Assembly: GCA_029582155.1 (NCBI GenBank)
Contig: CM055894.1
Coordinates: 30,050,707 to 30,114,706 of the forward strand
DNA length: 64,000 nucleotides
Direction: 5' to 3'
Source of the DNA: Panopea generosa
Lineage: Eukaryota; Mollusca; Bivalvia; Adapedonta; Hiatellidae
A program made the translations under genes and the position numbers. The notes beneath the pieces are model-generated. The model had not been told where the DNA came from, searched no databases, and saw only the letters and a program-made list of their open reading frames with translations. Of this stretch, positions 22,630-47,069 are shown in pieces. Position 1 is the first letter of the stretch; every line of letters begins with the position of its first letter.

Positions 22630-22639
22630 CTTTGTTGAC
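22630..22639. repeat. Left 10-bp target-site duplication
   Basis: CTTTGTTGAC directly abuts the left terminal inverted repeat starting at 22640. The identical 10 bp abut the right end at 47060-47069. Confidence 0.8.
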
Positions 22640-22765
22640 GGCACGGTGTAAACGCTGACGCTTAAGCTGACAATTTAGGTAAAGAAGGAAACCGCTGACA
22701 ATATGTACAAAGAAGGAAACGCTGACAACATGTACAAAGAAGGAAACGCTGACGATATAAAAATT
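22640..22765 (+). repeat. Left terminal inverted repeat of the giant MULE
   Basis: After the end sequence there are three ~28-bp modules of the form AAAGAAGGAAACGCTGACAA followed by TATGTAC, spaced regularly. They match the right end (46955-47059) module by module in inverted orientation, except for an 11-bp insertion (CGCTTAAGCTG-like) near 22660 in the left copy. Modular terminal repeats of this kind often serve as multiple transposase binding sites; that role is inferred. Confidence 0.75.
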
Positions 22766-23084
22766 GAATGAAATGCTGACATTATGAATTAGACTACTAA
22801 TATATTTTATTCCAGAAGGAAATATATAGACATATATTTATGGCAGATTTTCATATTACAGTAAAATATTAGGATGTTAAAGATCAAGGTTTTAAGCAAT
22901 TAAATTATTAGAGATTTGTTTGCAACCATCATAATGCAATAAGAAATAAAAAAAAAACCTGTTATATTGTGTGGAAGTTGTTGGTTTAAATTCATTTTTA
23001 TCAATGTATTTGTGCATTAATTTTGTTTGTTTTTGTGTGTTTAAGGATATATAGGCTTATTATATCCATTGAAACACGATTGAA

Positions 23085-23495
23085 TGAAATGAATTCAAAC
23101 ATGATTGTTTGATCACACAATGGTTTATTGTTTTTAAACTGTTTGTGACTTATTATAAATGTAATCAATGATCATTTAAATAAAAAGCGGTTGTATAGTT
23201 GGTTCAAAGATAAAATTGATGTTAATTATATTAATCCGTGACAATTTTGAAACGTTTGTCTAATAGAATGATTTCAGACACGATTGTTTGATCACACAAT
23301 GGTATATCGGTTTGAAACTATTTGTGGTTTAGTGAAAATGTTATAATTAATAAGTTTAAATCAAAAGCGGCTGTATAGTTAGAACAAAGATATAATTGAT
23401 GCTAATAACATTAATCCATGAAAATTTTGCGGTCCTTTAATCGTTTGTCTAATAATTTGATTTCAAACACGATTGTTTGATCACACAATGCGGTT
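23085..23495 (+). promoter_or_regulatory. Tandem ~185-bp 5' UTR monomers of the L1-like LINE
   Basis: The motif CACGATTGTTTGATCACACA recurs, nearly unchanged, at about 23100, 23280 and 23469. The sequence between (AAAAGCGGTTGTATAGTTGG, AATTGATGTTAATTATATTA, GTTTGTCTAATA) repeats with it, giving two and a half units of about 185 bp ending at ORF1. Tandem 5' UTR monomers that act as promoters are known from rodent L1 elements. By position this array is likely the LINE's internal promoter. Confidence 0.55.
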
Positions 23496-23530
23496 GTATT
23501 AACATTAAATACCAGGCAAGTCAACCATAT

Positions 23531-24301
23531 ATGACAACACCAATGTATCCGTGCAATTCGCCATTTATGAGCATTAATTCTGGGTCACCCATATTACAAT
23601 CAGCGCCGCAAAACAATGATATTTTATCGGCAATAATGCAAAGGCTCTGTTCAATGGACCAGAAACTGGCCCAATTAGATACAATTCAGTCGACCATGAG
23701 CAATTTAACGGAGAGCATTAGCAAAATGGATCAACGTGTAGAGAAATTAGAAAATAAAATCAACGATCTGGAACATAGTGCTTCATTCGACAACTCAATA
23801 GTGAGCGAAATTAATAAAAAACAAAAAGAAATTGAAGCTATGGTAACAAAAATGCAATCTTTTGAAAGAGATCAAAAAGTCAAGGAAACTGAGTTAAAAA
23901 CAGAAATCATGGACATGAAATGCAGGAGCATGAGGGATAATTTACTTTTTTTTAACTTGAAAGAAGAAAGGGAAGAAAACTGTGTCACCAAGGTGCTTGA
24001 CTTTATAGAAAAGGAGGTAAAAATCAGTAATGCTGCTACAGAAATAAAATTACAGCGTGCTCACAGGATCGGAGCATTCAGTCAAGCTAAGACCCGTCCA
24101 ATTGTAGCCAAATTCGCTTGGTCAGCAGATAAAGAAAACGTAAAAAGGTCGGCTAGAAACCTAAAGGGAACCACATATGGCATCAGCGAGCAGTACCCAA
24201 AAGAGATTATGGACGTTCGCCGCAAACTCACGCCGATCATGAAACAGGCCAGACAGGAAGGAAAAGACGCGTATATCAGGATCGACAAACTATATATATA
24301 G
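23531..24301 (+). CDS. LINE ORF1: L1-type RNA-binding chaperone
   Basis: The 256-residue product starts at the first ATG (23531); the frame is open some way upstream but only with a TTG. Residues ~30-145 have heptad-like leucines, isoleucines and methionines (LTESISKMDQRVEKLENKIN) that predict a trimerising coiled coil. Then follows an RRM-like region (MRDNLLFFNLKEE) and a C-terminal domain with KLQRAHRIGA, RPIVAKFAW and YGISEQYPKEI, the hallmarks of L1 ORF1 proteins (transposase_22 family). These proteins bind LINE RNA and help reverse transcription at the target site. The frame is intact, unlike ORF2, which follows after about 30 bp. No zinc knuckles are present. Confidence 0.75.
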   Translation: MTTPMYPCNSPFMSINSGSPILQSAPQNNDILSAIMQRLCSMDQKLAQLDTIQSTMSNLTESISKMDQRVEKLENKINDLEHSASFDNSIVSEINKKQKEIEAMVTKMQSFERDQKVKETELKTEIMDMKCRSMRDNLLFFNLKEEREENCVTKVLDFIEKEVKISNAATEIKLQRAHRIGAFSQAKTRPIVAKFAWSADKENVKRSARNLKGTTYGISEQYPKEIMDVRRKLTPIMKQARQEGKDAYIRIDKLYI

Positions 24302-24333
24302 ACAAGCAGTTGTACAGGGGAGATAACTAGGAC

Positions 24334-27300
24334 AAATGTGAGAGTGAACTAAAGTGTTTAGCGTGGAATATTGAAGGGTTGACTATTGATAAAAGATCAA
24401 GCAAGGATTTTGTAAATTTAATTAATGATTATGATGTTATATGTTTTAGCGAAACATGGACCAACAAAACTTCAGATATCGACTTCAAAGGGTATAGTAA
24501 TCCTATTCATTCGTTTAGACGATTTCAGCACCGGAGGGCAAAACGCTCTAGTGGTGGTATCATTATTTATATAAAGGACTCGATGAGAAAAGGTATTAGC
24601 CTTATAAAGAATGATTATGATTGTTTAGTTTGGTTGAACTTTGATAGATTATTTTTTAATATTGATGAAGATATTTATTTGGCAGTAACATATATAGCGC
24701 CAGAAAATTCTCCTGCTCATAACATGTATGATATAGATATTTTTAGAACAATTGAACAAGATGTAAATTATTTCCAAGATAAGGGGAAAATATTTAATGT
24801 AGGAGATATGAATAGTAGAGTAGCTTTAAAAACCGACTACATAGATAATGACAGAGACATTGAGCAATTTGATTTTCTCGAGGTAGACAATCCAATACCT
24901 TGTGCGACCTCAGACTTGGTATCAAACCGTTACGGTGAATATTTAATTGATCTATGCAAATCAACGAATTTACGTATTGTTAATGGCAGGTTACATCGGG
25001 ATAAAGGTTTAGGTAAAATTTCTTGCGTAACACATAATGGACAGAGCCTAGTTGACTACCTGTTAACGGCCCACAATAACTTTGACATACTTTCAGATTT
25101 TTGTGTTCACAATTTTAACGAATTCTCCAATCATGCCCCGATCACATTTTCATTCGATATAACGCCTCAATATGAGTCACGTGATACAAGAGAATACATT
25201 TATTACAAGTGGAAACCCGAATTTAAAAACGATTTTATTAATGGCATTTCTCAAGGTATAAATGATTTAGAACAATCGCTATTAGATGGAATAGATAAGA
25301 ACTGTAGTACTGATGAACTAGTATCGAGTCTCACTGACTTCATGGACAAAAATGCAAATAAATATTTCAGGCATACTGTTAAACCTTCGGGTAATTATTT
25401 TTTGTCAAATCAAAACAAAAATAAGTGGTTTAATGATGAATGTAAAAGTCGTCAATCACTATACAAGGAATATATTTTATTGTATAATATAAATAAATCG
25501 GATGCGAACAGGCAATTGGTGCTACAATCGAAAAAGAATTATAAATATTATTGCAGAAAATGTAAATATGCGTACAATCGGAACTTAGGATATAAGATGA
25601 ACGAAATGAGACGTAAGCGGTCAAAAGAATTCTGGAACATGTTTAAAACACGTAAAAAACAGAGTATCAGTGATATACCATTGGGTAAATTCTATGACCA
25701 CTTTAAAAACTTATCATCGGATGTCACTATAAATCCTGATAACGAATGCGAGGATTTCTTAGATAACTTCGATGGCTTTATAAATCCAAGTACTTTTTCT
25801 GAATTAGACAACCCCATTAATCGTGAAGAAATAATTTCTGCGGCTAAGAGACTTGGCACGAATAAATCAAGCTCACTGGATAATATGCTCTATGAGTACT
25901 TTAAAGAGACAATCGACCTAACAGCGAAGTCGCTGGAGATTTTATTTAATTATATTTTAAATACAAATAACTTTCCAAAAAATTGGTCAAAAGGAATCAT
26001 TTATCATCATAAAAAAGGGAGCATGAGCGATCCGAATAATTATCGTGGGATCACTTTGATAAGCTGTTTAGCCAAACTGTTTACCGTTATAATCAATGAA
26101 CGGCTTAAAAAATGGGCAACACAGAACGACATTTTAACAGATGTGCAGTTTGGATTTAAAGCAAATTATAGTACAATAGATGCAATTTTTATACTTAACT
26201 CTTTTATCGAAAAGAATATCAATTCAAAGAAAAAATTGTATTGTTGCTTCGTAGATTTTAAAAAAGCCTTTGACTCGGTGTACCGAAACGGGCTTTGGTT
26301 TAAATTAATCAAACTTGGTATAGATGGTAAATTGTTAAATCTACTCAGGTCTATGTATAATGACATCAAATTATGTGTTAAACACTTTGTCAGACTTTTT
26401 TGATTGCAAAGTAGGGCTATTGCAAGGGGAGATAACCTCGCCGATATTTTTCTCGTTATTTTTAAATGACATTGAACTGTCTCTTCAAGGTAACACCGAT
26501 ATAGGAATAACACTTGATCAGCTATCTATTTATCTTTTGATGTTTGCTGATGATGCAGTGTTATGTTCAGAAACAAAAAAGGGATTACAAGCGTCACTTA
26601 ATAATCTAGAAATATATTGCCACAAATGGAATTTAACAGTTAATACAGAAAAAACTAAGATCGTTGTATTTCGAAAGGGCAGGATGTTAAGTAAAAATGA
26701 TAAATGGACATATTCCGGGTCAGAAATTGAAATAGTCAATAGTTTCAATTATCTAGGTATAGTATTGTCAAGCGGAGGGTCATTTATTAAAAACGCGAGC
26801 ACTCTATCTGGTAAAGCCTTGCGGGCAATGAGTACCTTGCTGAGCGTAACAAAAGCATATGAAATACCTATCAATATAATGTTTAACCTATTTGACTCAT
26901 ACGTTCTATCTGTCTTGAATTATGGTTGCGAAATATGGGGTTTTGATAAATCAGAGCAGCTGGAAAGGGTGCATAGAAAATTCTGTAAATGGACACTAAA
27001 TGTAAAAATGTCTACAAATAGTTTATCCTTATACTCAGAAACGGGTAGATTCCCACTGTATATTGAAAGGTATATACGAATAATAAAATACTGGCTCAAT
27101 TTACATAAAGAAAAAAGCCGAAATTGTGTTTTAAACACAATTAAAAATGTACAGAGACAAGAAATTGAAACAAACCACAATGCAAAAACTGGTCTTCGAA
27201 AGTGCGAAATTTATTGTGCCAAAGCGGCTTTGCAGAAATATGGATGTATCCGGAATCAGTTATTGTAAACTTGTTCATACCTTTGTTAAGGAATAGATTA

Positions 27301-27750
27301 AGAGATATTCATATAAATCATTGGCAAGAAACTATTTTAATCCACACTTCGTTGTCTTTGTACAGAAATATCAAACATACTTACCAAATATCAGACTACT
27401 TGATAAAACTGAACAACAAAAAACATAGACACATTATTGCCAAAATAAGATTGTCATCTCATTGTTTGTACATAGAAACCGGACGTCACAGGAACATAGT
27501 TAGAAATGAAAGGAAATGTGTGCTTTGTAACAAAAACGATATAGAAGATGAATATCACTTTATTTTATTCTGTCCTTATTATAATGATATGCGAAAGCAA
27601 TATATTCCAAACTATTATATCAATAAACCTAGTATGTTCAAATTCATTAATCTTCTGCAGTCAAACAAAAAGTCTGTCTTAAACAAACTTGCATCATATT
27701 GTATCAACGCATTTAAAATGCGAGAACAGGTGCTTAATGCAAACACCTAA
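24334..27750 (+). pseudogene. LINE ORF2: endonuclease-reverse transcriptase, two frameshifts
   Basis: The first segment (to 26403) starts with the apurinic-type endonuclease: LAWNIEGL, CFSETW, NVGDMNSR and a final SNHAPI block. It then enters reverse transcriptase, with YRGITLISCLAKLFT, QFGFKANYSTIDA and FVDFKKAFDSV. A frameshift near 26370-26400 moves the reading to the frame ending at 27268, which carries GLLQGEITSP and the catalytic FADDA box. A second frameshift near 27205 moves to the last frame, ending at 27750 with a CCHC-like finger CVLCNKNDIEDEYHFILFCP. No in-frame ATG exists at the start; reinitiation after ORF1 or loss of the start are both possible. Together with the L1-type ORF1 this is an L1/Tx1-like LINE, no longer active here. 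Confidence 0.8.
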
Positions 27751-27985
27751 TTAGCTAATATTTTTGATTATATTATAATAAGTCATATGTTAATAACAAG
27801 TCAACTAGCCATGTTATTCACTCTCACTATAATTACTATTACCACCATAATTATTATTATTACTACCATATTTTCTAAAATGTTTGTATTTAATATTGAT
27901 ATGCATTTTGCATGTGCCTTATGTATTTGATTATGTATTTATATATGCTATTTATGGTGAAAAGCTTTTGTAATGCTTAAGCCAA

Positions 27986-28020
27986 AATAAAAGAATGTTC
28001 TGTTCTGTTCTGTTCTGTTC
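27986..28020 (+). repeat. LINE 3' end: AATAAA signal and (TGTTC)n tail
   Basis: AATAAA at 27986 is followed by five TGTTC units (27996-28020). A short microsatellite at the 3' end rather than poly(A) is common in several LINE clades and marks the element's 3' terminus. Confidence 0.6.
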
Positions 28021-28213
28021 ATTAAAAATACAACAAGTTAGACAAACTGAGAAATATTCATGTATAAAATGGTAAAGGTGTATGTTGATTTCATTCTAAA
28101 TTTTTTTTTACGTTTGAGTTAATATATTCTTCAATTCTAATAACAAGTTTGGGTGTATGCTTTAGACAATATATAATCAATTGATTTAGTTTATATCAGC
28201 TGTGTTTTATAAG

Positions 28214-28398
28214 GACTTTATTGTGAACATTCGCTACTGTGTAAATCAAAAGTGGCTTTTGTGATCGGACATAGTCAGGCAAAGTACTTGTCTGAGTATC
28301 TTAGCCACGACAGTTACAGTGTGTTTTCGTACCCAGAATTTAGGACTTTCCAGTTTCGCCAGGAGCAAGATATCTTTGACGTTGTGCCATACTTCTCG
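28214..28398 (+). CDS. Putative exon, SGNH-hydrolase-like fragment
   Basis: An open frame of 61 codons ends at a good donor (TTCTCG|GTAAGA). It reads KVAFVIGHSQAKYLSEYL, then a stretch with FSYPEFRTFQFRQEQDIFDV, ending VVPYFS. Hydrophobic strand plus GHSQ at the start, with PxF and VVPxF further on, resembles block I of SGNH/GDSL-type domains (usually GDSxxxx) with the Asp replaced by His. That resemblance is weak. The exon lies 190 bp after the L1-like LINE tail and before the 270-bp array, within the proposed MULE. No partner exon could be found. It might be captured host sequence, an exon of the MULE's own gene set, or chance. Confidence 0.3.
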
Positions 28399-28700: not shown

Positions 28701-28832
28701 AGGCAATTCTGTACTTGTTGATTGCATATTAATTTACGATATTTGTGACAGTAGCCTACATGTCACATTTGTCGTCTGCATTTTCACTGTAACTAAGAGT
28801 AAGCATGTAATATGCATTATTTTATTTAATGT

Positions 28833-29861
28833 AGTTATTTATGTCATAATTGATTTATGTTTATATGAAATTTAACAAAATAATAAATATGAATATATTT
28901 TGGCTATATTATTTAAGAATTGATCATAGACGAGATATAGACTGTTTGTGTCGTCTGCATTTTCATTAAAGCTCTATAGCGTCAGCGTTTCCCTTCTTTC
29001 TACATATCGTCAGCGGTTTTCTTCTTTGTACATATTGTCAGCGTTTTCATTCTTAGTCTAGATGCTGGTCAGCGCCAGCGTGGGACTGCACTATTATTAT
29101 AAGAGGTGTTGTTATTTATGTCACAATGGATTTATTTTAATATGAAATTTAGCAAAAAAATAAGTGAATATATTCCGGCTATACTATTTAAGAATTGATC
29201 ATATTAGCGATATAGACAGTTTGTGTCGTCTGCATTTTCATTATAGCTATATAGCGTCAGCGTTTCCCTTCTTTCTACATATCGTCAGCGGTTCCTCTTT
29301 GTGTATATTGTCAGCGTTTTCATTCTTAGTCTATATGCTGGTAAGCGCCAGCGTGGGACTGCATTATTAATATAAGAGGTCTTAATTATGTCACAATGGA
29401 TTTTTTTTAACATGAAATTTAGCAAAATAATAAATGAATATATTCTGGCTATATTATTTAAGAATTGATCATATTAGCGATATAGACTGTTTGTGTCGTC
29501 TGCATTTTTATTATAGCTATATAGTTATATAGCGTCAGCGTTTCCCTTCTTTCTACATATCGTCAGCGGTTCCTTCTTTGTACATATTATCAGCGTATAT
29601 ATTCTTAGTCTATATGCTGGTCAGCACCAGCGTCGGATTGCACTATAATTACAAGAGGTGTTGTTATTTATATCACAATGGATTTATTTAAACATGAAAT
29701 TTAGCAAAATAATAAGTGAATATATTCTGCTATATTATTTAAGAATTGATCATATTAGCGATATAGACAGTTTGTGTCGTCTGCATTTTCATTATAGCTC
29801 TATATCGTCAGCGTTTCCCTCCTTTTTACATATCGTCAGCGGTTCCTTCTTTGTACATATT
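28833..29861 (+). repeat. 270-bp tandem array carrying MULE end modules (~4 copies)
   Basis: Units start at about 28833, 29107, 29380 and 29662, each with TATGTCACAATGGATTTATT, ATGAAATTTAGCAAAATAAT and AGAATTGATCATATTAGCGA, followed by GTCAGCGTTTCCCTTCTTTC, ATCGTCAGCGGTT and CTTTGTACATATTGTCAGCG. The second half of each unit matches the right end of the giant MULE in the same orientation, but lacks the outermost TTTACACCG. Most units end with GCCAGCGTGGGACTGCA. The last unit stops in the middle of a module and is fused directly to the MULE transposase frame at 29861. Confidence 0.8.
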
Positions 29862-30808
29862 GGGAGGGAGCTAGTGACATTGGACTTACTCTCCTCAGTG
29901 AGTCAGATGTGTGGTTCATGGACGGGACCCATTCCACCGCACCAAAACAGTTTGCTCAACTATTTGTTATACGTGTGCCTCTTGGACATGCCCATGTGTC
30001 CGCTGTGTATGCCTTCCTACCATCTAAAGTACAGTCTGTTTATGAGGAGTGCCTCACTAGTATCCTTGATGCCTGCCTTCACAGAAACCTGCGACCAGAC
30101 CCATCAACAGTTGTTTCCGACTATGAAGTTGCCATTCACAACGCTGTTCGATCTTCAATCAGCCAGAAAATCCGAATCCAGGGCTGTTTTTATCACCTGA
30201 CTCAGAGTACATGGAGAAAAATCCAGACTGAAGGGCTGCAGGCAGCTTACAGAGAAAATGATTCTATCAGGGTGTTCTGTGGAAAGTTGGACGGGCTGGC
30301 CTTCTTCCCACTTGAAAAAGTCAACGAAGGTATAGCCATTTTGAAGGAAGAAGTTCCAGAAAACCTATTAGCCATCTTACAGTACTTCGACTCAACGTAC
30401 GTGACAGGGTCATATAGAAGCGTCATGGGACTAGGGGGTGTCCTTCGTTTTCGCAGAGTACCACCAAGATTCGCACCAGACACCTGGAATGTCCATCAAG
30501 CAACAGTGACAGATGGCCATCGTACTAACAATGTTTGCGAGTCTTGGAACAACGGGTTCAAGCACCTGGTTGGGCACAAACATCCATCCATATGGACTGC
30601 GATCAACTGTCTGAAGAAAGACAGCACACTCGTTCAAACAGAAAATCTCCAACATCAACATGGTATACAGCCAGCAAAGAGACAGAGGAAGAAAACTGTA
30701 CACCATCAAAAACAAATGAAGGAACTATGTAATCAACTTGTAGAAGGACAAAAAACAGTGAGTGAATTCCTTTGTGTTGTTGGACAGTGTATTAGACTAA
30801 GTAGGTAG
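29861..30808 (+). pseudogene. MULE transposase, 5'-truncated
   Basis: The frame begins at the junction with the 270-bp array (WEGASDIGLTLLSESDVW) and runs ~315 codons to a TAG. It shows the MULE transposase core: FMDGTHSTAP with the first catalytic Asp; VVSDYEVAIHNAVRS with the second Asp; GCFYHLTQSTWRKIQ, the conserved C...H pair; NNVCESWNNGF, which probably supplies the catalytic Glu; and a basic tail KRQRKKTVHH. No stop interrupts the core. The missing N-terminal part (usually a FLYWCH or WRKY-GCM1-like DNA-binding zinc finger) is replaced by array sequence and there is no proper start codon, so the gene is broken. It is probably the transposase lineage that mobilised the surrounding element. 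Confidence 0.75.
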
Positions 30809-31207
30809 CTGTGTGATTGACAATGACAATGACCGGCCTCTGATTGACTATGTCTGCAAAAACTGCTGTGTTTGTAAATATATGTTTTTCAACTTTTCAT
30901 CCATATGGACTGCGATCAACTGTCTGAAGAAAGACAGCACACTCGTTCAAACAGAAAATCTCCAACATCAACATGGTATACAGCCAGCAAAGAGACAGAG
31001 GAAGAAAACTGTACACCATCAAAAACAAATGAAGGAACTATGTAATCAACTTGTAGAAGGACAAAAAACAGTGAGTGAATTCCTTTGTGTTGTTGGACAG
31101 TGTATTAGACTAAGTAGGTAGCTGTGCGATTGACAATGACCGGCCTCTGATTGACTATGTCTGCAAAAACTGCTTTGTTTGTAAATATATGTTTTTCAAC
31201 TTTTCCT
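30584..31207 (+). repeat. 313-bp tandem duplication of the MULE 3' end
   Basis: Sequence from about 30584 (CCATATGGACTGCGATCAAC to TATATGTTTTTCAACTTTTC) is repeated from about 30897 with few differences. It includes the last ~70 codons of the transposase, the TAG and 3' flank. The second copy encodes only the C-terminal tail. Confidence 0.9.
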
Positions 31208-31339
31208 TGTTTTATTATCATGATGTGCTATATTTTCTACACTAGTAGTTACAAAATGTTGCTATGTTTTGTGTGCTATATATTTACTCATAACTTAAAT
31301 TAAATGGAAATAAATTTGACTTTATTAATCTTTGTTTTT

Positions 31340-31507
31340 TTTTTAATACTTTATTGTTTTACAAAACCATTTAATAAGAAGTAAATCAACATTTACTCAA
31401 CACCTTTACTGTCTGTCACCTATTTTTTTTTATACAATATTGTTCTACAAAACCATTTAATAAGAAGTAAATCAACATTTACTCAACACCTTTACTATCT
31501 GTCACCT
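31340..31507 (+). repeat. ~90-bp tandem duplication
   Basis: AAAACCATTTAATAAGAAGT through CACCTTTACT and CTGTCACCT occurs twice, at about 31363 and 31451, separated by a T-rich linker. Confidence 0.85.
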
Positions 31508-31524
31508 TATGACAAAAATCCAGG

Positions 31525-32590: not shown

Positions 32591-32599
32591 AAACTCTTT

Positions 32600-35399: not shown

Positions 35400-38300
35400 A
35401 TGATCTCTTTTAATGTTCAGGGACTGACCCCTCTTAAGCACACAGAGATTAAAGTTTTCTTGGATTTAAATCCACATATTGATATACTCTGTGTGCAAGA
35501 ATCAAAATTACCACCAAATAAGGAGAGGAATGTCCCTGGATATAATGCACAATATAGTTTTTATAAAAATGCCCAAAACAATGTTTGTGGAGGGCTTATT
35601 ACATATTTTAAAGATTCCATTAATTTTGAGGAGATTAATGTAGACGACCCCAAAGATAATATGGGGAACTCCAAGATTGAAATTCAGTTATTTAGAGTTT
35701 ATCTAGGGGGGTCCCCCTTCATACTTATCAATTTATACTCTAGGGGGTGCGACCTAGATTCTTTGGAATACATAAGTTCATCTATAAATGCTGAAGATGG
35801 ACTTAGGGACTGTATTATAACTGGAGATTTCAATGCTCACCACCCTTTATGGGGATCTCCATTTGAGTACCGTCAGGGGAGGGATATTTTGGAATGGGCG
35901 GGGAGAAATGACAAAGTTCTACTCAATGACGGTTCCTTCACAAGAGTAGACCAGGGCTCAGGAAAGGGCTCCTGCATTGATCTAACATTCACCAGTCCCA
36001 AATTTTCAGCTGGTTCTAATTGGCAGGTACATGGGGATAATATGGGATCAGACCACTACCCAATCTGCATAACAATAAATTCTCAACACCACAAAATTAC
36101 AGAAAATTCTAAAGAAGAAAGATTCAAATTTGAAAAGGCAGACTGGGATTTATTCAAAAAACTTTGCAGGGAGATAACCCTAGATGACGTCTACTCTAAT
36201 GATATCAATATTTTTAATAACAATCTCACAGAAAGGTTCCTGTTGGTAGCAAAAAAATGTATACCTGTCTCTGACTCTGGCAAAAAGACAAGAAAAAATG
36301 TCCCGTGGTGGGGTTCTTCCTGTGTCGAAGCTGTTAAAGGGCGAAAACGAGCATTAAATAAACTAAAACAGCACCCTTGTCTCGGAAACTTATATGACTA
36401 CAAGGAGGCTGAAAGGGAAGCAAAATTTGTCATCTTAGATGCTAAAAAGCAAAACTGGGAAGAATTCTGCGAATCATGTATACATAAAAACACAAACTCA
36501 AAGGAATTTTGGACCAAAATTCGCAGAATTAAAGGAAATTCACAATGCCCTATTCCACTACTAAGAAATAAGACAGCTTTAGCAGTCAAATCAGTAGAAA
36601 AAGCCAACTTCTTAGTTGAACACTACTCTAAAGCTGCCAGTGATTCAAACGTCAACGATGAAACACTAAATTATCAAAATAAATTTGAATCACTGTATAA
36701 AAACTACCTAAAAAACCCAGAAATAAACAGGTCACCACTTAATAATGGCTTCTCAATTTTTGAACTAAGATCAGTAATTGATAACAGGAAGAACTCAGCT
36801 TCGGGACTTGACAAAATATCTTACCACATGTTTAAACACATGCCAAATTCAGCCTTGTATCTGTGGTTAAGATTATATAACAAAGTGTGGAATGGTGGTG
36901 TCTACCCAGTAGCTTGGAAGCAGGCTTGTGTTATTCCCCTACTAAAACAAGGGAAAAACCCAAATGAAGCACAGTCTTACAGACCAATTAGCCTGACCTC
37001 CCATCCAGGTAAATTAATGGAGGGGATGGTCAAGGCGCGTTTAGAACATCTGCTTGAATCAAAAAATATAATTAATCCCTTTCAATCTGGATTTAGAAAG
37101 GGCAGGAGCACTTTGGATCAGCTCATTAGACTACAACATGATGTAAATACAGCAAAAAATAGGGGACACTCAGTCCTAGCAATTTTTCTAGACCTTCAAG
37201 CAGCTTTTGATCTAAACTGGCATGCAGGCGTACTCTATAAATTGAAAGAACATGGAATAACAGGAAACTGCTACCAATATCTGAGGAACTTTCTTGAGGG
37301 ACGCAAAATTCAAGGTAAGGTGGGGGATACCCTGTCAGACACGGAAACGTTACACAGGGGAACCCCCCAAGGGGCCATTTTATCCCCTCTTCTATTCTCT
37401 CTTTTGATCAATGATCTCCCTGACACACTAGAGGGGACAGGGATGGTTACCAGCCAGTTTGCTGATGATTCAGGCACATGGCTAGGGGGGGGGGGGGTCA
37501 ACTTAAACCTGTTACAAACAAGAGCTCAAACAGGACTTGACCTTATCTGGGGATGGGCAAAAGAATGGGGCTTTAAAATTAGTCAAACTAAAACAGTGGG
37601 AATTATTTTTGGCAACTCAAAACAGCACAGCTTGGACGTAAATTTAGGCGGCACACCAATCATATTTAAAAAAATAGTAAAATTTTTAGGCATGCTTTTA
37701 GATAGGAAACTAAATTTTCACAGTCATATAAAAGACATCATGACCAGGTGTGAGAAAGACTTAAATTTGATGAGAATGTTAAGAGGAACAGACTTTGGCA
37801 CTGATAAAAATAGCCTCTTACTTCTTTATAAGTCTCTCATACGTCCAAAAATAGATTATGGGGCTCAAATCTATTCATGTGCACCACCTTCAACATTAAA
37901 AAAATTAGATATCATCCAGAATAAGGCCCTTAAGATAGCCCTCAGAGCACTACGTTCCACAGAAAGTTATTTGCTAGAGGCAGAGGCAGGTGTTACCCCA
38001 TTATGGTTGCGGCGACAAGACCAGTCAGTTAAATACTGGGCCAGGGCTCAAACCCGAAAAGAAGGAAACCCTGTGAACAAACTCTTCGGGACCGGATACC
38101 ATATCAAGTCTAAATATCAAAAAAATCATATAGCCATGCCATTTGGGGCTTATACCCAGGACTTGATAGAGGAGTACGGTCTCGGGGAGATCAGTGTAGC
38201 AGACTTCAGACCCAAACCAGATCCGCCCTGGGTTCTTAAAAATCCTGATATTAGGTTAACCCTCTCAGCCGAGTTCAATAAAAGTGACTTGCCAGCACTT

Positions 38301-39215
38301 ATAAGATCCATTACGGCAAACCACATTGACCGGCACTATGCTGACCACACTCAAATTTATACAGATGGTAGTAAAAATCCCGATGACGGGAAAGTTGCAG
38401 CTGCTTATGTCATTCCATCTGTTCAGATACAGTATTCTGAGAGACTCAGCAACAATTTGTCAATTTACACAGCTGAACTAGTCGCAATACAAAAAGCAAT
38501 GTGCTGGATCATAGAAAATAAATCAACTAAATCTGCTATATTTTCGGATTCACTTTCAGCTTTAACTTCACTCAAAAATAATAATAGCAGATCAAGGCCT
38601 GATCTTTTGGCAGACATATATAAACAATATAACCAGTGCCTTGAATTAGGGTTACAAGTTACTATAGAATGGTGTCCAGCACATGTAGATATATCAGGAA
38701 ATGAAGAAGCAGATAGGGCGGCTAAGGAGGGCCTTGAATACAACAATATTTCAAATTCAGTCCCCCTTGCACCAACCGAGGTCTATTCCTTAACAAGGAA
38801 AATAATTATTAAGAAATGGTCCACTTTTATCTCTAAAAAACCATTTAAACATACATTTCGCAGGACCTCGGTTAATTTCAGACGACCAACAAATTACTCT
38901 AATAATAAGAGAATTGATAAATGCATTACTCGTCTGAGATTGGGTGTAAATCTCCTCCCAGGAAATAGGGGACAATATATAATTAATAAAGGGAGAGATT
39001 GCATCCGGTGCAAGGAAAAATTTACCACTGAACATTTTCTGCTACACTGCCCGATTCACAGGGTCCCCCGGGCAAATTTAAGGACTGCACTTGTTGGAAA
39101 TAAGTTAGATTTCGACATTAATAATATTTTGAACCCCAGCAAGGCAGTCCGGGCCTCAGTCTATAAAGCCTTGGAATGTTATATTCTAGACTGTCAGATG
39201 TCTGACAAAATATAG
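35400..39215 (+). CDS. I-clade LINE ORF2: endonuclease, RT and RNase H (intact)
   Basis: The ~1271-residue product starts at ATG 35400 (MISFNVQGL), which begins the endonuclease directly; the frame is open upstream into ORF1. Residues ~1-220 form the apurinic-like endonuclease (CVQESK, GDFNAHHPLWGS, SDHYPI). The reverse transcriptase follows at ~500-760: SYRPISLTSHPGKLME, FQSGFRKGRSTLDQL, FLDLQAAFD, TPQGAILSPLLF and the catalytic FADD. RNase H is at ~985-1115 with all acidic residues: YTDGSK, AELVAI, SDSLSA, and HVDISGNEEAD. A C-terminal finger CIRCKEKFTTEHFLLHCP ends the protein. RNase H after RT places it in the I superfamily, close to Nimb-like elements of molluscs by layout. No lesion is visible, so it may be active. 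Confidence 0.9.
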   Translation: MISFNVQGLTPLKHTEIKVFLDLNPHIDILCVQESKLPPNKERNVPGYNAQYSFYKNAQNNVCGGLITYFKDSINFEEINVDDPKDNMGNSKIEIQLFRVYLGGSPFILINLYSRGCDLDSLEYISSSINAEDGLRDCIITGDFNAHHPLWGSPFEYRQGRDILEWAGRNDKVLLNDGSFTRVDQGSGKGSCIDLTFTSPKFSAGSNWQVHGDNMGSDHYPICITINSQHHKITENSKEERFKFEKADWDLFKKLCREITLDDVYSNDINIFNNNLTERFLLVAKKCIPVSDSGKKTRKNVPWWGSSCVEAVKGRKRALNKLKQHPCLGNLYDYKEAEREAKFVILDAKKQNWEEFCESCIHKNTNSKEFWTKIRRIKGNSQCPIPLLRNKTALAVKSVEKANFLVEHYSKAASDSNVNDETLNYQNKFESLYKNYLKNPEINRSPLNNGFSIFELRSVIDNRKNSASGLDKISYHMFKHMPNSALYLWLRLYNKVWNGGVYPVAWKQACVIPLLKQGKNPNEAQSYRPISLTSHPGKLMEGMVKARLEHLLESKNIINPFQSGFRKGRSTLDQLIRLQHDVNTAKNRGHSVLAIFLDLQAAFDLNWHAGVLYKLKEHGITGNCYQYLRNFLEGRKIQGKVGDTLSDTETLHRGTPQGAILSPLLFSLLINDLPDTLEGTGMVTSQFADDSGTWLGGGGVNLNLLQTRAQTGLDLIWGWAKEWGFKISQTKTVGIIFGNSKQHSLDVNLGGTPIIFKKIVKFLGMLLDRKLNFHSHIKDIMTRCEKDLNLMRMLRGTDFGTDKNSLLLLYKSLIRPKIDYGAQIYSCAPPSTLKKLDIIQNKALKIALRALRSTESYLLEAEAGVTPLWLRRQDQSVKYWARAQTRKEGNPVNKLFGTGYHIKSKYQKNHIAMPFGAYTQDLIEEYGLGEISVADFRPKPDPPWVLKNPDIRLTLSAEFNKSDLPALIRSITANHIDRHYADHTQIYTDGSKNPDDGKVAAAYVIPSVQIQYSERLSNNLSIYTAELVAIQKAMCWIIENKSTKSAIFSDSLSALTSLKNNNSRSRPDLLADIYKQYNQCLELGLQVTIEWCPAHVDISGNEEADRAAKEGLEYNNISNSVPLAPTEVYSLTRKIIIKKWSTFISKKPFKHTFRRTSVNFRRPTNYSNNKRIDKCITRLRLGVNLLPGNRGQYIINKGRDCIRCKEKFTTEHFLLHCPIHRVPRANLRTALVGNKLDFDINNILNPSKAVRASVYKALECYILDCQMSDKI

Positions 39216-40100
39216 ACTTAAAAATCCAGGCCCTAATTTCATCAGTTATCCCTCTAAATACCACCCAGGGTCAGCAAAAATGTTTTATAGTACTTTGATT
39301 GGAATCTCCAGTATGGTTTGATTTACTTGTTATAGTGCTTGGTCCTTCTAAGTACAAAAAGTATCAGTTTCTAGTGGGAGGTGGGGTGGGACCACAATGC
39401 AGCCCACAAAAATGTTGTGTGGCCTGGGGTGTGGACTCGTGCCACCTCCCACAGCTGAGCCATGCTTACACAGAGAGAATTGTTATATTAAAATATCAAA
39501 TATGTATTTAAATTATTTTGTCAGGCTTACTTTCAGTCTGATTGAATTATAAATTGATTGGCATGAGTGATTTTATATTTATGCCACATTAAATTAACTT
39601 TCTCTAAAAAGGAAATTGTACATGGGATTTATAACATTCACAACAAATATATGCTGACCCTGGGGAATGATAATATTCATTATATTATCAAGGGACCTGG
39701 CCCGGCACCCCAGCACGGGTGATGAAATAAAATTACAGGGCCCCCAGATTCAGGGGAACACTATTATTAGCAATATTAACTAGGCTTGGGCCTGTTAGTC
39801 CCAAGCGGCTAATTAGCTCTATCCTAAGTGCAACAATATATTATTTTACTATAAATGTTGTATATAATGTACAAAACTTTTAATAATCTGTTGTTTATTT
39901 TATAACCCTAATCTGGGCCGTTTAGTACTTAGGATACAGGATTATAATCATTATTTTTAGTAACTTATCTTAAATATGTTCCATTATTTTAATAGAGTAT
40001 TGTTGCACTTGGAAGACAGCTATTTATCCTACACCACATGAACATCATATAGTCTGTGTAATTCCAACCAAGATTCACTGGTCATCAAGTGCAATCTTTT
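39216..40100 (+). other. 3' flank, probably the LINE 3' UTR; no gene
   Basis: No coding frame is credible. The LINE's 3' UTR probably occupies part of it (GGGCCCCCAGATTCAGGGGA, then AAGCGGCTAATTAGCTC), but no poly(A) or tandem tail marks the end. Confidence 0.35.
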
Positions 40101-40104
40101 GTTT

Positions 40105-40345
40105 ACATCTCCTCCGGGTCAACATTCCATTGAAGGTTAAACGCCGCCGATTGGCTGGATTTCAATCACGGACCTAATAGTGAACAGTTCTATATTTAGT
40201 TCACAGTTTTATGTCCTGAGCTTAAAGCCGAAAACGGATTGAAATCTGGCCAATCGGAATGAGCGTTACAATCCCGATCGTACCATTCAGCGACCGGCTT
40301 TTATCGGGGCTCTTGGCCCTATGTGTTGAACTAGGGAGGAGATGT
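40105..40345. mobile_element. Foldback/MITE-like element, 241 bp
   Basis: The outer arms ACATCTCCTCC...GTCAACA and TGTTGAAC...GGAGGAGATGT are inverted repeats. An inner pair, GATTGGCTGGATTTCAATC and GATTGAAATCTGGCCAATC, is also inverted. The whole can fold into a long hairpin around a central region with GTGAAC/GTTCAC arms. There is no coding capacity and no clear target duplication. Confidence 0.65.
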
Positions 40346-41085
40346 ATTATTAAATATGAACATGAACGCTTTATATCTAGTAATGGATATGTATTATACA
40401 TATTTTAGCGTTTTTTGCATGTTTATGTTAATTTACAGTGATTATAATTTTAATAATCATTAAAATAGTAACGTATATCATGTTGATTACGGGACTATAT
40501 AGCAACTCCGTATTCACTACACAGCATTGAGTACGGTTCTAGGGAATATCATGGTTAGGAAATGCCATGATACTCATTATTGAATTACACAAGACTACCT
40601 TATAAATATATAGTGACCAACTTCTACTAATCAGTTCTCAGCAGATCTGATCTGAGGGGATATCGGATTTTTTAAGATATTTTTTAATTATGGCGCTTTT
40701 TAGGTACGAGCAATCTGCCGGGTGCTTCTTTACAAACATCACAATTTAATTTAATAACAATTTTTAACATACTTTTAGTCCATTGTGTACCAATATCTGA
40801 TACATCATGGGAGATTAGCGGTGGTTGGTCACATTTTAATAGTGTGGTGTACTAGCAAAATATTGCATGGCTGACGAACATTTTTCAATAAATTAATTAT
40901 TCATAAACTTGCGTAGCTCAAACTATGATATAGCGGTACCTGCCGCTATATTATTAAAAAAAAAATGGTTGAACACTTTTAGAAGTTATTACAACTTTCT
41001 AATGTACCATACAAATACAAATATACAATTTAAAGTATATAAATAACAATGTACGTGTGTACAGGGTTATATGGTTCACCATTAA

Positions 41086-41098
41086 CCCCTTCACTGCC
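41086..41098 (+). repeat. piggyBac left TIR
   Basis: CCCCTTCACTGCC, immediately after TTAA; perfect inverted match to 44138-44150. Confidence 0.93.
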
Positions 41099-41350
41099 TT
41101 GCCCCGAGAACCGCTTGGGTTTCAAATTGCTACCTATACGCCTATACCCCGAGCGGTGCTCGGGATTATTTCATCACAACTTAAATTGTCGATATGGTCT
41201 AAGGGAGGTAACTACGTGAAACCTTATTATAAAGTAGTATTACAAGTTAACATTCGTGTTCTTTTTGGTCACGTGACATTCAAAATGGCGTCAAAATATT
41301 AACTGTTTACGACGAAAAAGGATTTCTAAAAGGAATTTAGTTATTTCAAG

Positions 41351-43744
41351 ATGGCGACTGATCGTAGGGATGTTAGGTCGCGTTTTTCATTGGCAGATGT
41401 TGTTGCAGAAATCCAGAACGACCCTGATAGTGGTGATGAGGACTTATATTCTGCTTCAAATTCAGAAACAGAAAATGACGAATTTGACAACAACAACAAC
41501 AACATTTTAACACCACTTTTGCCCGTTGTGTTAGATGCATTATCACAAAATGACGAAAAAAGACATTCTTTTTCGTCGGGAAGTGATACTAGTGATGAAA
41601 CAGAAAGTGACAGTGATTACATTCCCCAACAACCAAAACGCCAAAGAGTAAATGTTTCAAGGACAAGGGGCAGAGGCCAACCTACAGCGGGTATGTAAAC
41701 GGAATAGGAAAAACAACACCGGTTCTGTGTTCATGATTTATTTTCGAAGTAGTCTATAATCATATAGCAAATATAACATATTACTATATTATATAATAAC
41801 ATATTTATCTACAATTATAGAAATATTGTATATGAAAGTTTTCCTAGTAGCCTGTCTCATATTTAGTACATTTATATTGGCTAAATGGACCCTGAGCCGT
41901 AAATTTGCTCAGTTTTATAGTAGTATTTTAGGCGGAAACTTGTTAGGATTTCATGAATTCTATACTTGAGCACTCATAATTTGTACAACGATCCAAAGAT
42001 AGCTGAAAAGTTATAAAAACATTTATGAACAATACAAAACATGAATAGATAGCAGTTTATATTTCCTGTTACAGGTACATCTGGTACGACTGGGAGGGGG
42101 CGTGGCACTGGTACACCTGCAAGGGGGCGTGGCGTAAGGAGGCGAGGTGGTGGACGCGGCCGAGGTGCCATACAGCAGCATACACTGATTTCTGCGTGGA
42201 CTAAGGCAGGAATACAGCCACCAAATGACATCCCTTTCACTGGGAACCCTGGAATTACACAAGATACTGCAAATTTTCAGCCTAACGATTATTTGGAAAT
42301 GTTTTTCAATGAAGATCTTGTGAATCATTTATGCATTCAAACAAATCTGTATGCCGAACAATATAAATCGACAACAAATCTTAAGCAATATTCAAGAGTT
42401 CATGATTGGACTGATGTCGACAGTAATGAAATGAAACTGTTCCTTTCTATTGTTTTGTTGATGGGTATTATAAACTTACCTACTATCGAAATGTATTGGA
42501 CAAAAAAGATTTTGTTCAGTGTGCCAGTGTTCAAATTGCTTATGACTCGGAATAGGTTTCAACTGATTTTGAAGTTTCTACATTTTCATGATAATTCTAC
42601 TTTACCAGACAGAACTGATCCTGATTATGATAGGCTGTATAAAATAAGGCCTGTAATTGATCATTTGTTTGAAAAATTTCAGTCAGTGTATGAACCAAGA
42701 AAGGATGTATGTGTCGACGAAAGCCTAATGTTGTGGAAAGGCAGACTGCTATTTCGGCAGTTTATTCCTCTAAAGCGAGCTAGGTTTGGGATAAAAATAT
42801 ATTTATGCTGCGAATCCGACGGTGGCATCAAAGGAAGTGGTGGATATTGTTACAGATTCAAAGTGTACGCAGGAAAAGATGACCCCGTGAATGAAATAAG
42901 ACCTGTCATTCCAGGCGATTCACTTCATCTGTCGACAAGTGAACAAATGGTAGTTTTCCTAATTGCTCCACTACTCAACAAAGGTTACCATGTTTACACA
43001 GACAACTGGTACACTAGCTTGCGACTTCACTTGTACCTACTAGAAAAGGAGACACTTGCGTGTGGTACAATCAGATCAAATCGTGGCATACCAACACAGC
43101 TTACTGAGCAAGCTGTTGAAAGAACTGGTGACTCCGTTGCTCTGTTAGGCGATGACAAAATTGTAGGAACTAAATACCATAGTACAAAAGTTGTATACTT
43201 ACTGTCAACAATCCATGGACACGATGAAGTGACTGTAAATAACAGGCGGCGAAATGGCACAATCAAACGTCCGAAGGTATCTTCAGAATACAATCGAAAT
43301 ATGGGGGGAGTCGACAAGCAGGACCAGCTTATCCAACCCTATGATTGCACTCGGAAATCTATGAAATGGACTAAGAAGCTCTTCTTCCACTTTCTTCAGG
43401 TTAGTGCCTGTAATGCCTTCATACTAGCTTGCAAGGGTGGATTTGAGAAACCATTCCTTCAGTTTCTCGAGTCGATTATCATGTCATGGGCCCACCAGGA
43501 CTCTCCGGCCCCTATAGCTAGTGAACCAGAAGACATTGTACGTTTGAGGGATAGACATTTCCTTGAAGTCATCCCTTCCAATGAGGGTAAAGAAAAACCT
43601 ACTAGACTTTGCAGAGTCTGCTCTAAGATGGGAAAACCAAGGAGGGAAGTACGGTATTACTGCCCAGACTGCCCATCTAAACCAGCATTGTGTATGTCGC
43701 CATGTTTCCGTGTGTATCATACACAGTTTGTGTATTGGAAGTGA
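41351..43744 (+). CDS. piggyBac transposase (two exons, intact)
   Basis: Exon 1 is 41351-41690 and exon 2 is 42075-43744, with a 384-bp intron (GCGG|GTATGT to TTACAG|GTACAT). The phases join into one frame of ~669 residues. The N-terminus is acidic, then an Arg/Gly-rich stretch at the junction (GRGRGTGTPARGRG). The DDE_Tnp_1_7 core has three catalytic aspartates in their usual motifs: VCVDESLMLWKGR (about residue 327), VYTDNWYTSL (about 423) and GGVDKQDQL (about 527). The C-terminal cysteine-rich domain is complete (RLCRVCSK, YYCPDCPSKPALC). The protein cuts the element out of TTAA sites and reinserts it precisely. It belongs to the PGBD4-like branch by general appearance. Without the intron, exon 1 would end at a TAA shortly after the donor. 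Confidence 0.9.
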
Positions 43745-43845
43745 CCTTATTCATGTTATTGTGAACTGTAACATTTGTCATGTTTATTATTGGAAGTGAC
43801 CTTATTCATGTTATTGTGAACTGTAACATTTGTCATGTTTATTAA
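43736..43845 (+). repeat. 55-bp tandem duplication at the transposase stop
   Basis: TGGAAGTGACCTTATTCATG through TTTGTCATGTTTATTA is present twice, from 43736 and 43791. The first copy contains the natural stop codon, so the coding sequence is unchanged. Confidence 0.9.
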
Positions 43846-44137
43846 TGAAAGTTGCTTAGGTTTCTGACAATATTTGGTATGTTTACCAAATTATGTATAA
43901 AAAAACTGGTAAAAAATATTAAAAAAAGTGATTTCAAGATGTTGTAAATGAAAAAAATATGTGTTATATGTACAAAAAAACTTGTTTTATATGTAACCAA
44001 ATATATATCAAACAAGCATGTAAAATTTCTTGTGATTATCTCTTGTAGTTTTTATTATATGGGCAATTATGTGTCTTTAGTATGAAACGGCCTGAAAATA
44101 GGTTATGTTTCCCGGCAAATAGAGAGCAAATATACAT

Positions 44138-44150
44138 GGCAGTGAAGGGG
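44138..44150 (-). repeat. piggyBac right TIR
   Basis: GGCAGTGAAGGGG directly before TTAA; mirror of the left TIR. Confidence 0.93.
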
Positions 44151-44154
44151 TTAA

Positions 44155-45310
44155 CAGTAAATACTACTGTATAATGGTTTTAGAGAATGTCAATTGATGT
44201 TATTAGTATCATAGGCATTCAATATAGAGCTATGCAAGACGATCGACTGAAAATAGACTAATATATGAAACCTCATTTACTTAAACATTAATACCTGTGT
44301 AGCCATATTCTTTTAAGTCAAGTACCATACCAGCAACAAAATAATATTGTTGCTGGTTTTACGGCATACTTTAGTTTGTTGATATTTATATATTGACAAT
44401 TACTCTCTGTATGTGGTATATACGGTTGCTAACGGTACTGTCATACAAATAAAATATTACCATAGCAACTGAGCACAATTAGTGTGCACAGATAAACAAT
44501 CAGCGGGAATCATTCCTGTTGAGGGTTCAAGTTGGGTCGGACGCTTATGATATCTCAAGCAAATTTATTTGCGCTATAAGCAAAAGCGTCTGGCCTAATA
44601 TATAGGTTTTACACATATTAAAGAACCATAGTAATGCTAGTACAATCAATACTAATATTTTTAAATCATATTTTGGCTGCACAAGGTAGAGTAGAATGCC
44701 TGGAGTCTCAATAATTAAACGTTAGTATTTGAATGTTGAAGTCAATCGTATAAAGTCTGCATCAATATAAGCAATTAAAAATAACTAATTAAAACAACTG
44801 ATTAAGTAAAAATAGGAATGTCCATATTTATAAAACAATAAGTGTTACTCCATAGTGGGTAATCACCGATTATCGCCGTCATCTTCATCATCATCATTAT
44901 CATTAGTTTTAAATGATCATCTTATCTTTTAATATAATCACCTTGCTTTTTAAGCAATCATCCTGTTTTTTAAATAATCATCTTATTCGGCTCGCCAAAA
45001 TGACTTAGTTCAAAGTGCGAGGGTAAAGAAACACTTATACATACATACAAGGGACACGCATTATATATTTACAACTATGGCCATTAATTTTGTTTGACAT
45101 TTCTGACACCATCAGTTATATAATGTTTTTTTAGGCATTATGATTGTTTTATCATGAGATCAACGTTTGCTGTTGTCTCTTGTCTCTTCTTCTTTTTCTC
45201 CTCTATTTAATGTTTATTATTCTTATCATGAAACATACGTTGTTTACTTCATATTTTAGTTTTTATTATTTATTCAAATGAACATGTGTGTCAGTGTGCG
45301 TGATAAGGTA
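44155..45310. other. MULE interior, no gene found
   Basis: AT-rich and without a credible reading frame. A hairpin (ACCAGCAACA...TGTTGCTGGT, 44329-44358) and short ATC and AATCATCTT repeats (44885-44990) are the only structures seen. Confidence 0.5.
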
Positions 45311-45313
45311 TAA

Positions 45314-46396
45314 GGTCAGCCACCTGAAGTGACTAGTTATTCGTTATAGAACACGTTACCTGAAGTGACTAGTGATTCGGTATACGGTCAGTCACCTGAA
45401 GTTACCCCTGAATAGGTATAGGGTCAGTCACCTTAAGTGACTTGTGATTAGGTATAGGGTCAGCCACCTGGAGTGACTAATGATTAGGTATAGGTTCAGT
45501 CACCTGAAGTGACTTGTGGTTAGGTATAGAGTCAGTCACCTGAAGTGACAAGTGAATAGGTATAGGGTCAGTCACCTGAAGTGACTAGTGATTTGGTATA
45601 GAATCAGTCACCTGAAGTGACTAGTGATTAGGTATAGGTTCAGTCACCTGAAGTGACTTGTGATTAGGTATAGGGTCAGTCACCTGAAGTGACTAGTGAT
45701 AAGTTATCGGTTCAGTCACCTGAAGTGACTAGTGATTAGGTATAGGGTCCGTCACCTGAAGTGACAAGTGATTATGTATAGGGTCAGCCACCTGAAATGA
45801 CTAGTGATTAGGTATAGGATCAGTCACCTGAAATGACTAGTGATTAGGTATAGGGTCAGCCACCTGAAGTGACTAGTGATTAGGTATAGGGTCCGTCACC
45901 TGAAGTGACAAGTGATTATGTATAGGGCCAGCCACCTGAAATGACTAGTGATTAGGTAAAGGGTCAGTCAGCTGAAGTGACTAGTGATTATGCACAGGGT
46001 CAGCCACCTGAAGTGACTAGTGATTTGGTATAGGATCAGTCACCTGAAGTGACTAGTGATTAGGTATAGGTTCAGTAACCTGAAATGACTAGTGATTAGG
46101 TATAGGGTCAGCCACCTGAAGTGACTAGTGATTCGTTATAGGGTCAGCCACCTGAAGTGACTAATGATTAAGTATAGTGTCAGTCACCTGAAATGACTAG
46201 TGATTCGTTATATGGTCAGTCACCTGAAGTGACTTGTGATTCAGTATAGGGTCAGTCACCTGACGTGACCAATGCTTAGGTATAGGGTCAGTCACCTGAA
46301 GTGACTTATAATTAGGTAAAGGGTCAGCCACCTGAAGTGACTAGTGATTTGTTATAGTGTCAGTCACCTGAAGTGACTAGTGATTAAGTATAGTGA
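45314..46396 (+). repeat. 36-bp minisatellite, ~30 units, each with a hairpin
   Basis: The unit AGTCACCTGAAGTGACTAGT followed by GATTAGGTATAGGGTC is repeated about 30 times with scattered substitutions. Each unit contains perfect 6-bp arms AGTCAC and GTGACT around a CTGAA loop. Spacing is strictly 36 bp. It lies about 0.6 kb inside the right end of the proposed MULE. Confidence 0.95.
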
Positions 46397-46954
46397 CACA
46401 TTTTATAATAATAATGAAAAATTAAAAAAAAAGCTGGTTTAAAGTCGTTCTGTCAGACCTCCACGTTGGTACCAGCTGGAAACAACAGTTACTTTTGTAA
46501 CTTTGGCTAACAGGACAGAACGCATGCACTTTTTTATATTGTAAAACTGTATGTTTTCATTTTGGTGATAAACACAATAATTTACAATTAAAACTTTCTT
46601 ATTGATAAAAAGTCCTTTTCGTAAAACCAATTCCCCATTTCCGTATACGGTATTGATAATTTCATTTTGGAAATAAAACATTAATTTAATAATTTGACAA
46701 TGGAATTTTCTGAAAATACGCAAGTAAGTTTTATTTAATATTCTTTTCAATAATATCATTATAGAAAACATCATCATAATAATGTCACTGATTTAGTATA
46801 ATCCGCGTTTATTAACACTAATAATAGAGCTGCAATTAGATCTATTATTATTAATATCATATTTTTTATTATTTTATCTATTATTATTAATATGATTATC
46901 CGTGTTATTAATGTGTATACTAGAGCTCCAGTTTTAATTAACAGTTTCAAAACG

Positions 46955-47059
46955 TGTCGTCAGCGTTTCCTTCTTTGTACATATTGTCAGCGTTCCTTCT
47001 TTGTGCATATCGTCAGAGGTTTCCTTCTTTACCTATATTGGCAGCGTTTTACACCGACC
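46955..47059 (-). repeat. Right terminal inverted repeat of the giant MULE
   Basis: Read inward from 47059 on the minus strand: GGGTCGGTGTAAAACGCTGC, then CAATATAGGTAAAGAAGGAA and two further GCTGAC modules. It is aligned with 22640-22765 across its whole length. Confidence 0.75.
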
Positions 47060-47069
47060 CTTTGTTGAC
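47060..47069. repeat. Right 10-bp target-site duplication
   Basis: CTTTGTTGAC, identical to 22630-22639, directly outside the right terminal repeat. Confidence 0.8.

Follow-up and report, generated by a model that had tools for sequence, protein, structure and literature searches.

The window analysed here, 64,000 nucleotides of Panopea generosa DNA (C1:30050707-30114706), was compared with the 1.47-Gb assembly of the same genome (39 contigs). A single insertion of 24,421 bp is confirmed in it at 22640-47060, bounded by terminal inverted repeats (TIRs) and by a target-site duplication. This insertion is very probably a non-autonomous internal-deletion derivative of a large family of Mutator-like elements (MULEs), whose multidomain gene was assembled from other copies in the genome. 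Nested in it are two long interspersed nuclear elements (LINEs), a piggyBac and a second MULE, the last of which carries the MULE transposase open reading frame (ORF) that lies between the host's ends. The features are, in order along the window:

22631..22639: left target-site duplication TTTGTTGAC, 9 bp, perfect, present as a single copy in three paralogous empty sites
22640..22780, + strand: left TIR of 27-bp GCTGAC modules, terminus GGCACGGTGTAAA
23083..23502, + strand: approximately 179-bp tandem repeats of the element body
23503..28026, + strand: nested LINE A (23510-28019), frameshifted, with endonuclease and reverse transcriptase (EN/RT) and a 7-bp CATTAAA duplication on both sides
28252..28398, + strand: what is left of the first coding exon (SGNH block I), without its start codon and followed by a GT donor
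28830..29862: internal 273-bp tandem array of GCTGAC end modules in right-end orientation
29857..31707, + strand: nested second MULE (29866-31698), internally deleted, with perfect 9-bp ATATTGGGA on both sides
29858..30808, + strand: transposase ORF of the nested second MULE, not the host's; Pfam MULE 1e-9
31708..31780, + strand: remaining 3′ end of the host gene (73 bp), with the PHD-finger tail and the stop codon
31781..32513, + strand: 3′ part of the element
32514..45048, + strand: nested LINE B, EN/RT/RNase H, ORFs at 33146-35389 and 35349-39215, 3′ end TACATACATAC
41086..44150, + strand: piggyBac inside LINE B, TIR CCCCTTCACTGCC, TTAA at 41082-41085 and 44151-44154
45300..46393, + strand: 36-bp minisatellite within the element, close to its 3′ end, shared with the C17, C10 and C21 copies
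46957..47060, - strand: right TIR, terminus GGGTCGGTGTAAAACG read from outside
47061..47069: right target-site duplication TTTGTTGAC

The ten bases CTTTGTTGAC are found at 22630-22639 and again at 47060-47069, and were described in the original prediction as a perfect 10-bp duplication at both ends. By chance 0.18 matches would be expected in the window, where there are three; the remaining one, at 9563-9572 on the minus strand, is at neither end of the insertion. That one insertion has duplicated its target is upheld, however the duplication is 9 bp long. Searches of the genome with each end gave 43 rows, with 40 of 378 candidates scored for the left end and 40 of 513 for the right, therefore all counts from them are lower bounds; without the window's own row and three sub-rows of an already counted place, 39 other rows remain for each end. 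Left-end matches begin at window positions 22639-22641 in 28 of these rows and right-end matches begin exactly at 47060 in 21, while the others mostly start a few bases off and some are without the outermost bases. Because the right-end matches across the genome begin at 47060, the right terminus is placed there rather than at the predicted 47059, and the duplication is the 9 bp of TTTGTTGAC; a tenth base matches by chance, as the element ends in a C and a C is also found in the flank. The predicted left boundary, 22640, recurs to within one base in the 28 left-end rows.

The paired inverted ends of about 110 bp made of GCTGAC modules, also part of that prediction, are present: 22666-22755 matches 47045-46957 with 92 % identity over 90 bp, the 27-bp modules are seen in both ends, and the TIRs measure approximately 104-141 bp. 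Foldback-type elements have ends built of tandem modules in this manner; since the family has a MULE transposase, Foldback is a description of its form and not where it is filed.

Target duplications of 8-11 bp, typically 9 bp, are a mark of MULEs, as are TIRs, which are long in many members. Twenty-two left-right end pairs, each on one contig, were chosen by eye (19 from short slices, together with C17, C7 and the window); for C10 the right terminus, and for C21a the left one, was located by fuzzy match. The 9-bp duplication is perfect in 17 of the 22, which answers the proposed search for other paired copies with duplications of 9-11 bp, and has no more than one mismatch in 18 (C12b being the copy with a single mismatch). 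When flanks were swapped between copies as a control, one mismatch or fewer was reached in 3 of 462 combinations. The other four pairs do not conform: no duplication is seen in C21a or C21b, in C13 the duplication TTGTATACC is offset by 2 bp, and in C6b there are two mismatches. The left flank of C6b is identical to that of C6c, therefore these two copies are related by segment duplication. In the region C6:58.2-58.8 Mb, GCTGAC copies at 58.24 and 58.40 Mb have a common left flank, indicating that the surrounding segment is duplicated, and at least six right-end rows (40 of 513 candidates scored) fall within these 0.6 Mb.

With the two flanks of the insertion joined as a query, 12 places in the genome were found, three of which (C1:44.82, 45.35, and 46.99 Mb) match over essentially the whole query at 89-90 % identity. 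All three read GATTATGTCCCTTTGTTGACTCTTT, with one copy of the target. The proposed check for an empty site is thus answered by three paralogues in the same genome, not by another species. Another paralogue, at C1:43.81 Mb, was considered to hold the same insertion until its edges were read and a different element was recognized. The inverted ends of that element (C1:43806190-43806330 and C1:43809440-43809580; L116 and L117) are like GGGTACTACTAAAACCCGG and lie approximately 3.3 kb apart with CCCTTTGTT on both sides, so nearly the same target has been hit by two different elements.

Comparison with the C17 and C21 copies identifies 22640-23509, 28020-29865, 31708-32513, and 45061-47060 as the element's own pieces, approximately 5.5 kb in total, and these keep the order that they have in C17 and C21. 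Later insertions amount to 18.9 kb. The locus had been described as a landing pad for LINEs and a piggyBac with about 15 kb of later insertions; the guests are confirmed, and their total is larger. The unusual element size of 24.4 kb is not supported, being the result of nesting, as the spans of the remaining 21 pairs range from 2,714 to 15,489 bp. LINE A is absent from six other copies that reach the same point (L002 and L004-L008; L003 is deleted there). LINE B, which has the 12-bp duplication AAGGGACACGCA at 32502-32513 and 45049-45060, is found in neither C17 nor C21. Its start (32514-32600, GTGGCCGAGTGGTCTAAGGCGCTG) looks tRNA-like by eye; a tRNA was not reported there by ARAGORN or Rfam. 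Of the element's own gene, exons 2-3 are gone in the window copy except for the 73-bp PHD end, the host's own transposase is absent, and the 273-bp array takes the position of the predicted first intron of fuller copies. Among the larger copies of the family, C2c (13.9 kb between ends) and C6c (15.5 kb) have perfect duplications, with interiors that are largely unread and may contain guests. C21a spans 14.55 kb, with no obvious foreign insert in the 13.5 kb read and ends without a common duplication. The maximum given in an arthropod MULE survey is 10.0 kb (PMC13359780).

The gene of the host family is encoded in broken pieces in the fuller copies C21 and C4 (10 kb of the latter was fetched, its left end being outside that part), and includes SGNH esterase, CG-1, MULE DDE, SWIM-like, Ulp1, and PHD regions. 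The C17 copy (6,751 bp) has a 312-aa open frame with matches to Peptidase_C48 (8.9e-6) and PHD (2.5e-5; 24.7 bits, cut-off 24), and a search of the genome with this frame found longer open frames, upon which the possibility of a non-autonomous carrier of Ulp1 only was dropped. In the C21 copy, the left end is followed by 189-bp repeats, a first exon of 49 codons, the array, two ORFs, and the 36-bp minisatellite. The C21 array, at 2297-7803, has 19.8 units of 274 bp with GCTGAC modules and lies in the predicted first intron. The first C21 ORF matches Lipase_GDSL_2 (2.9e-8) and CG-1 (6.4e-6), and an 823-aa ORF matches MULE (3.3e-6), C48 (8.6e-5), and PHD (6.3e-5). The first catalytic Asp (in YYDTTFNLGDF) is supplied by the C4 copy, whose MULE match is above the cut-off (3.1e-7) and whose GDSL match without exon 1 is below it (7.9e-6). 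The motifs were read by eye: YDTTF, VVTDREK, and NNVSES are presumed to hold the D/D/E residues of the DDE core and CSCPATTRCYH the SWIM-like motif. The residues around HW, LLD, and QNNSIDCG are likewise assumed to be those of Ulp1, and a set of cysteines those of the PHD finger. Based on these matches, the probable gene order is SGNH/GDSL esterase, basic Pro/Arg repeat region, CG-1, MULE DDE, SWIM-like, Ulp1/C48, and PHD, which is pieced together because none of the copies read is demonstrably complete.

When predicted exons 1 and 2 are joined at GT/AG, the Lipase_GDSL_2 score rises from 34.8 bits (C21 exon-2 frame) to 47.7 bits (3.2e-12), and the match extends over profile positions 22-175 of 178. 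The best solved relative of the joined exons is PDB 4c1b, an 'ORF1-encoded protein' (2.1e-6, query 5-98), for which the value without exon 1 is 0.0018. The splice is therefore supported by both the GDSL score and the structural match. PDB 4c1b is presumably the ORF1 esterase of a zebrafish LINE (ZfL2-1), and the likeness is thus between the ORF1 protein of a retrotransposon and a part of a DNA transposon gene. In the genome, the esterase exon gives 23 rows, and seven of the best eight are in GCTGAC copies or within approximately 6 kb of them (C21, C2, C4, two on C5, and two on C9), the eighth, on C7, matching no listed copy. The SGNH exon therefore appears, from its recurrence in several copies, to belong to the GCTGAC family rather than to be a capture by one copy.

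With the best copy taken for each domain, five Pfam matches are above their cut-offs: Lipase_GDSL_2 and Peptidase_C48 at the values given for the joined exons and C17, CG-1 (6e-6), MULE (3.1e-7, C4), and PHD (2.5e-5, C17). Several observations count against an intact gene of this composition. SWIM (13.8 bits against 19.6, E 0.044), Transposase_mut (20.3 against 21, 2.9e-4), and IS256 (26.6 against 150, 2.8e-6) are all under their cut-offs, and PHD, though above in C17, is below in C21 (23.4 against 24). The C21 copy is without the stretch of the first catalytic Asp and has two ends with no common target duplication, C4 is interrupted by a stop and a frame break, and the splice between exons 1 and 2 is predicted without RNA evidence. 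A relative at 39 % identity (L066, C17:36388384-36389172) has an 883-aa open frame with Ulp1 above the Pfam cut-off, MULE below it (0.0021), and PHD-like cysteines by eye; it may represent an older sister family within this genome.

The prediction of a Mutator-like element is well founded, given the inverted ends, the 9-bp duplication, and the MULE DDE encoded by the family in C4 and C21, the window copy having lost it. Within the superfamily, Rehavkus rather than the Ulp1-PHD group of MuDR is a real contender, given somewhat less than even weight. As far as its description was available, Rehavkus has a 9-bp duplication, inverted ends of 26-400 bp, a PHD finger, and a minisatellite before the 3′ end (PMC6446971), and all of these are found in the GCTGAC family, with the PHD finger of C17 at the C-terminus after Ulp1, the C21 frame with the 23.4-bit PHD also holding the DDE part, and the 36-bp array before the 3′ inverted repeat. 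However, the same portion of that description limits Rehavkus to insects and annelids, and, comparing by description, mentions no Ulp1, CG-1, or esterase. Mutator elements with Ulp1 have also been reported from hydra, lancelet, and plants, and a figure legend in the same source aligns the Ulp1 and PHD of Ginger1 and Mutator transposases (PMC2836005).

Other known systems show partial likenesses. The hydra and lancelet MuDR-type elements share a Ulp1 in a Mutator transposon, whereas SGNH and CG-1 before the DDE and an intronic array of end modules are not described in the consulted portion of that source (PMC2836005). Kaonashi/KIU and other plant Ulp1 MULEs also carry this protease, but they are of the non-TIR Vandal type, with the Ulp1 gene as one of the element's three genes (PMC13317346). 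Esterases are known in LINE, LTR, and Penelope-like retroelements (PMC3905857, PMC5408684, PMC6431247) and in a gene captured by a Helitron (PMC4021074). No MULE bearing an esterase or CG-1 was announced in the titles and openings of abstracts among the matches listed from the CC-licensed PMC literature. A Pack-MULE carries a fragment of a host gene between its ends where the transposase would be; the esterase exon of the GCTGAC family, in contrast to a capture by one copy, recurs in several. One source states that no Pack-MULE was identified in the animal reference genomes that it covers, while Drosophila Ssk-FB4 copies are called Pack-MULEs (PMC8277862). Another source counts 39 curated consensus sequences for bivalve MULEs (PMC10294476), therefore the GCTGAC family may already be in a curated library.

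The original prediction placed a MULE transposase between the ends; a MULE ORF is present there (29858-30808), however it belongs to a second MULE with its own ends and duplication. Its seven closest genomic matches have 94-98 % identity. Elsewhere, this ORF is part of a unit in which the 32-bp repeat block of 31529-31691 recurs upstream in inverted orientation and whose termini, GGGAGCCGGACAAAAG and TTTTGTCCTGTATTC, are unlike the GCTGAC ends. The unit is 3.3 kb in L010, L012, L029, and L030, and smaller elsewhere. Seventeen loci were compared, representing 15 places (L026/L031 are one place, as are L027/L030), with flanks in common between L023 and L025. Directly at both termini, 9-bp repeats are seen in eight of the 17 (L010, L014, L016, L018, L025, L030, L033, and L038). 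L023 matches at 8 of 9 positions and L026/L031 have just a 7-bp match elsewhere, L012, L013, L015, and L029 show no duplication within the available flank or by the search used, and L011 and L027 are not scorable. In the window, the same terminal bases are present at 29866 and 31698, and the second MULE is a 1,833-bp guest, an internal deletion of the longer form. A second MULE that lost its left end through a deletion also removing the Ulp1 exon was rejected, as the left terminal GGGAGC and the left duplication are present. The unit of the ORF has separate ends and lies within a separate ATATTGGGA duplication, so the window transposase is the guest's, not the host's. The two families have in common a MULE DDE core, modular inverted ends, and 9-bp duplications, but differ in their termini and in size (up to 3.3 kb for the guest), and BLASTP finds no significant similarity between their transposases (best E 1.5). 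No relatives of either transposase on viral contigs were confirmed.

At C3:85.61 Mb (L027/L030), a full-length MULE of the second family lies inside the left end of another GCTGAC element, with the duplication GTACAAAGA. In the window, a tandem duplication of approximately 310 bp (30585-31205, 97 % identical) spans the end of the transposase ORF of the second MULE, and is also seen in several other copies of this family.

As both families make 9-bp duplications in this genome, the GCTGAC element might have been mobilized in trans by the transposase of the second family; with different termini, and a MULE transposase gene of the host family's own, this is very unlikely. It is less likely still that the insertion is a MULE of 24.4 kb and the ORF at about 29.8-30.8 kb its proper transposase: the ORF does lie between the ends, with a clear Pfam match, but its family has termini and 9-bp duplications of its own, its unit in the window is likewise flanked, and the host family has a different transposase. 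That the two ends are separate shorter elements facing each other by chance, which might be suggested by the abundance of the family and by the GCTGAC modules of the internal array, is contradicted by the perfect outer duplication and by the C17/C21 order of the pieces between guests, and is ruled out by the three empty sites with a single target copy, leaving it next to no probability.

The array in the window is fused to the PHD tail, and the duplication of the guest MULE spans the fusion point, therefore the fusion came before the guest. Fusions of the array are seen elsewhere just before Ulp1 (C17), in the DDE region (C21b, L044), and past the gene (C7), so that, with the window included, the internal loss borders on the array in four shortened copies. 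The gap in C21a and the break in C2c (L045), which do not involve the array, are exceptions to this. The link between array and deletion is an association in a few copies, not a demonstrated mechanism.

By analogy with the MULE superfamily, the transposase of fuller copies would bind the GCTGAC modules in the ends, cut at the GG...CC termini, and join the element to a target staggered by 9 bp. The internal array, made of the same modules, could bind transposase too. The window copy may have been mobilized by transposase supplied in trans, or have moved before losing its own gene. Exons 2-3 were lost, before or after landing, with the array joined to the PHD tail, and the short second MULE then landed on the fusion point. 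LINE A and LINE B landed as well, and the piggyBac in LINE B, which therefore preceded it. It is tentatively proposed, as a suggestion rather more apt to fail than to hold, that an animal MULE lineage fused a LINE-ORF1-like SGNH esterase and CG-1 to MULE-Ulp1-PHD, and that the intronic array of end modules is both a sink for transposase and a frequent breakpoint giving rise to non-autonomous copies.

A nested locus such as this can mislead, since a transposase between two ends may be that of another element, and size may be borrowed from guests. The main interest is in the gene of the host family, with its unusual combination of transposase, protease, chromatin finger, and esterase. If SGNH really is in the transposase gene, a type of esterase found in retroelements also occurs in a cut-and-paste transposon, and the role proposed for it at membranes or in RNA particles would merit re-examination.

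Outside the insertion, a dispersed repeat of approximately 290 bp occurs at 841-1169, 10977-11270, 18649-18944, and 53851-54134, and also in L006, L010, and L024. At 62242-64000 there is a 52-bp satellite of approximately 34 copies, which continues past the end of the window.

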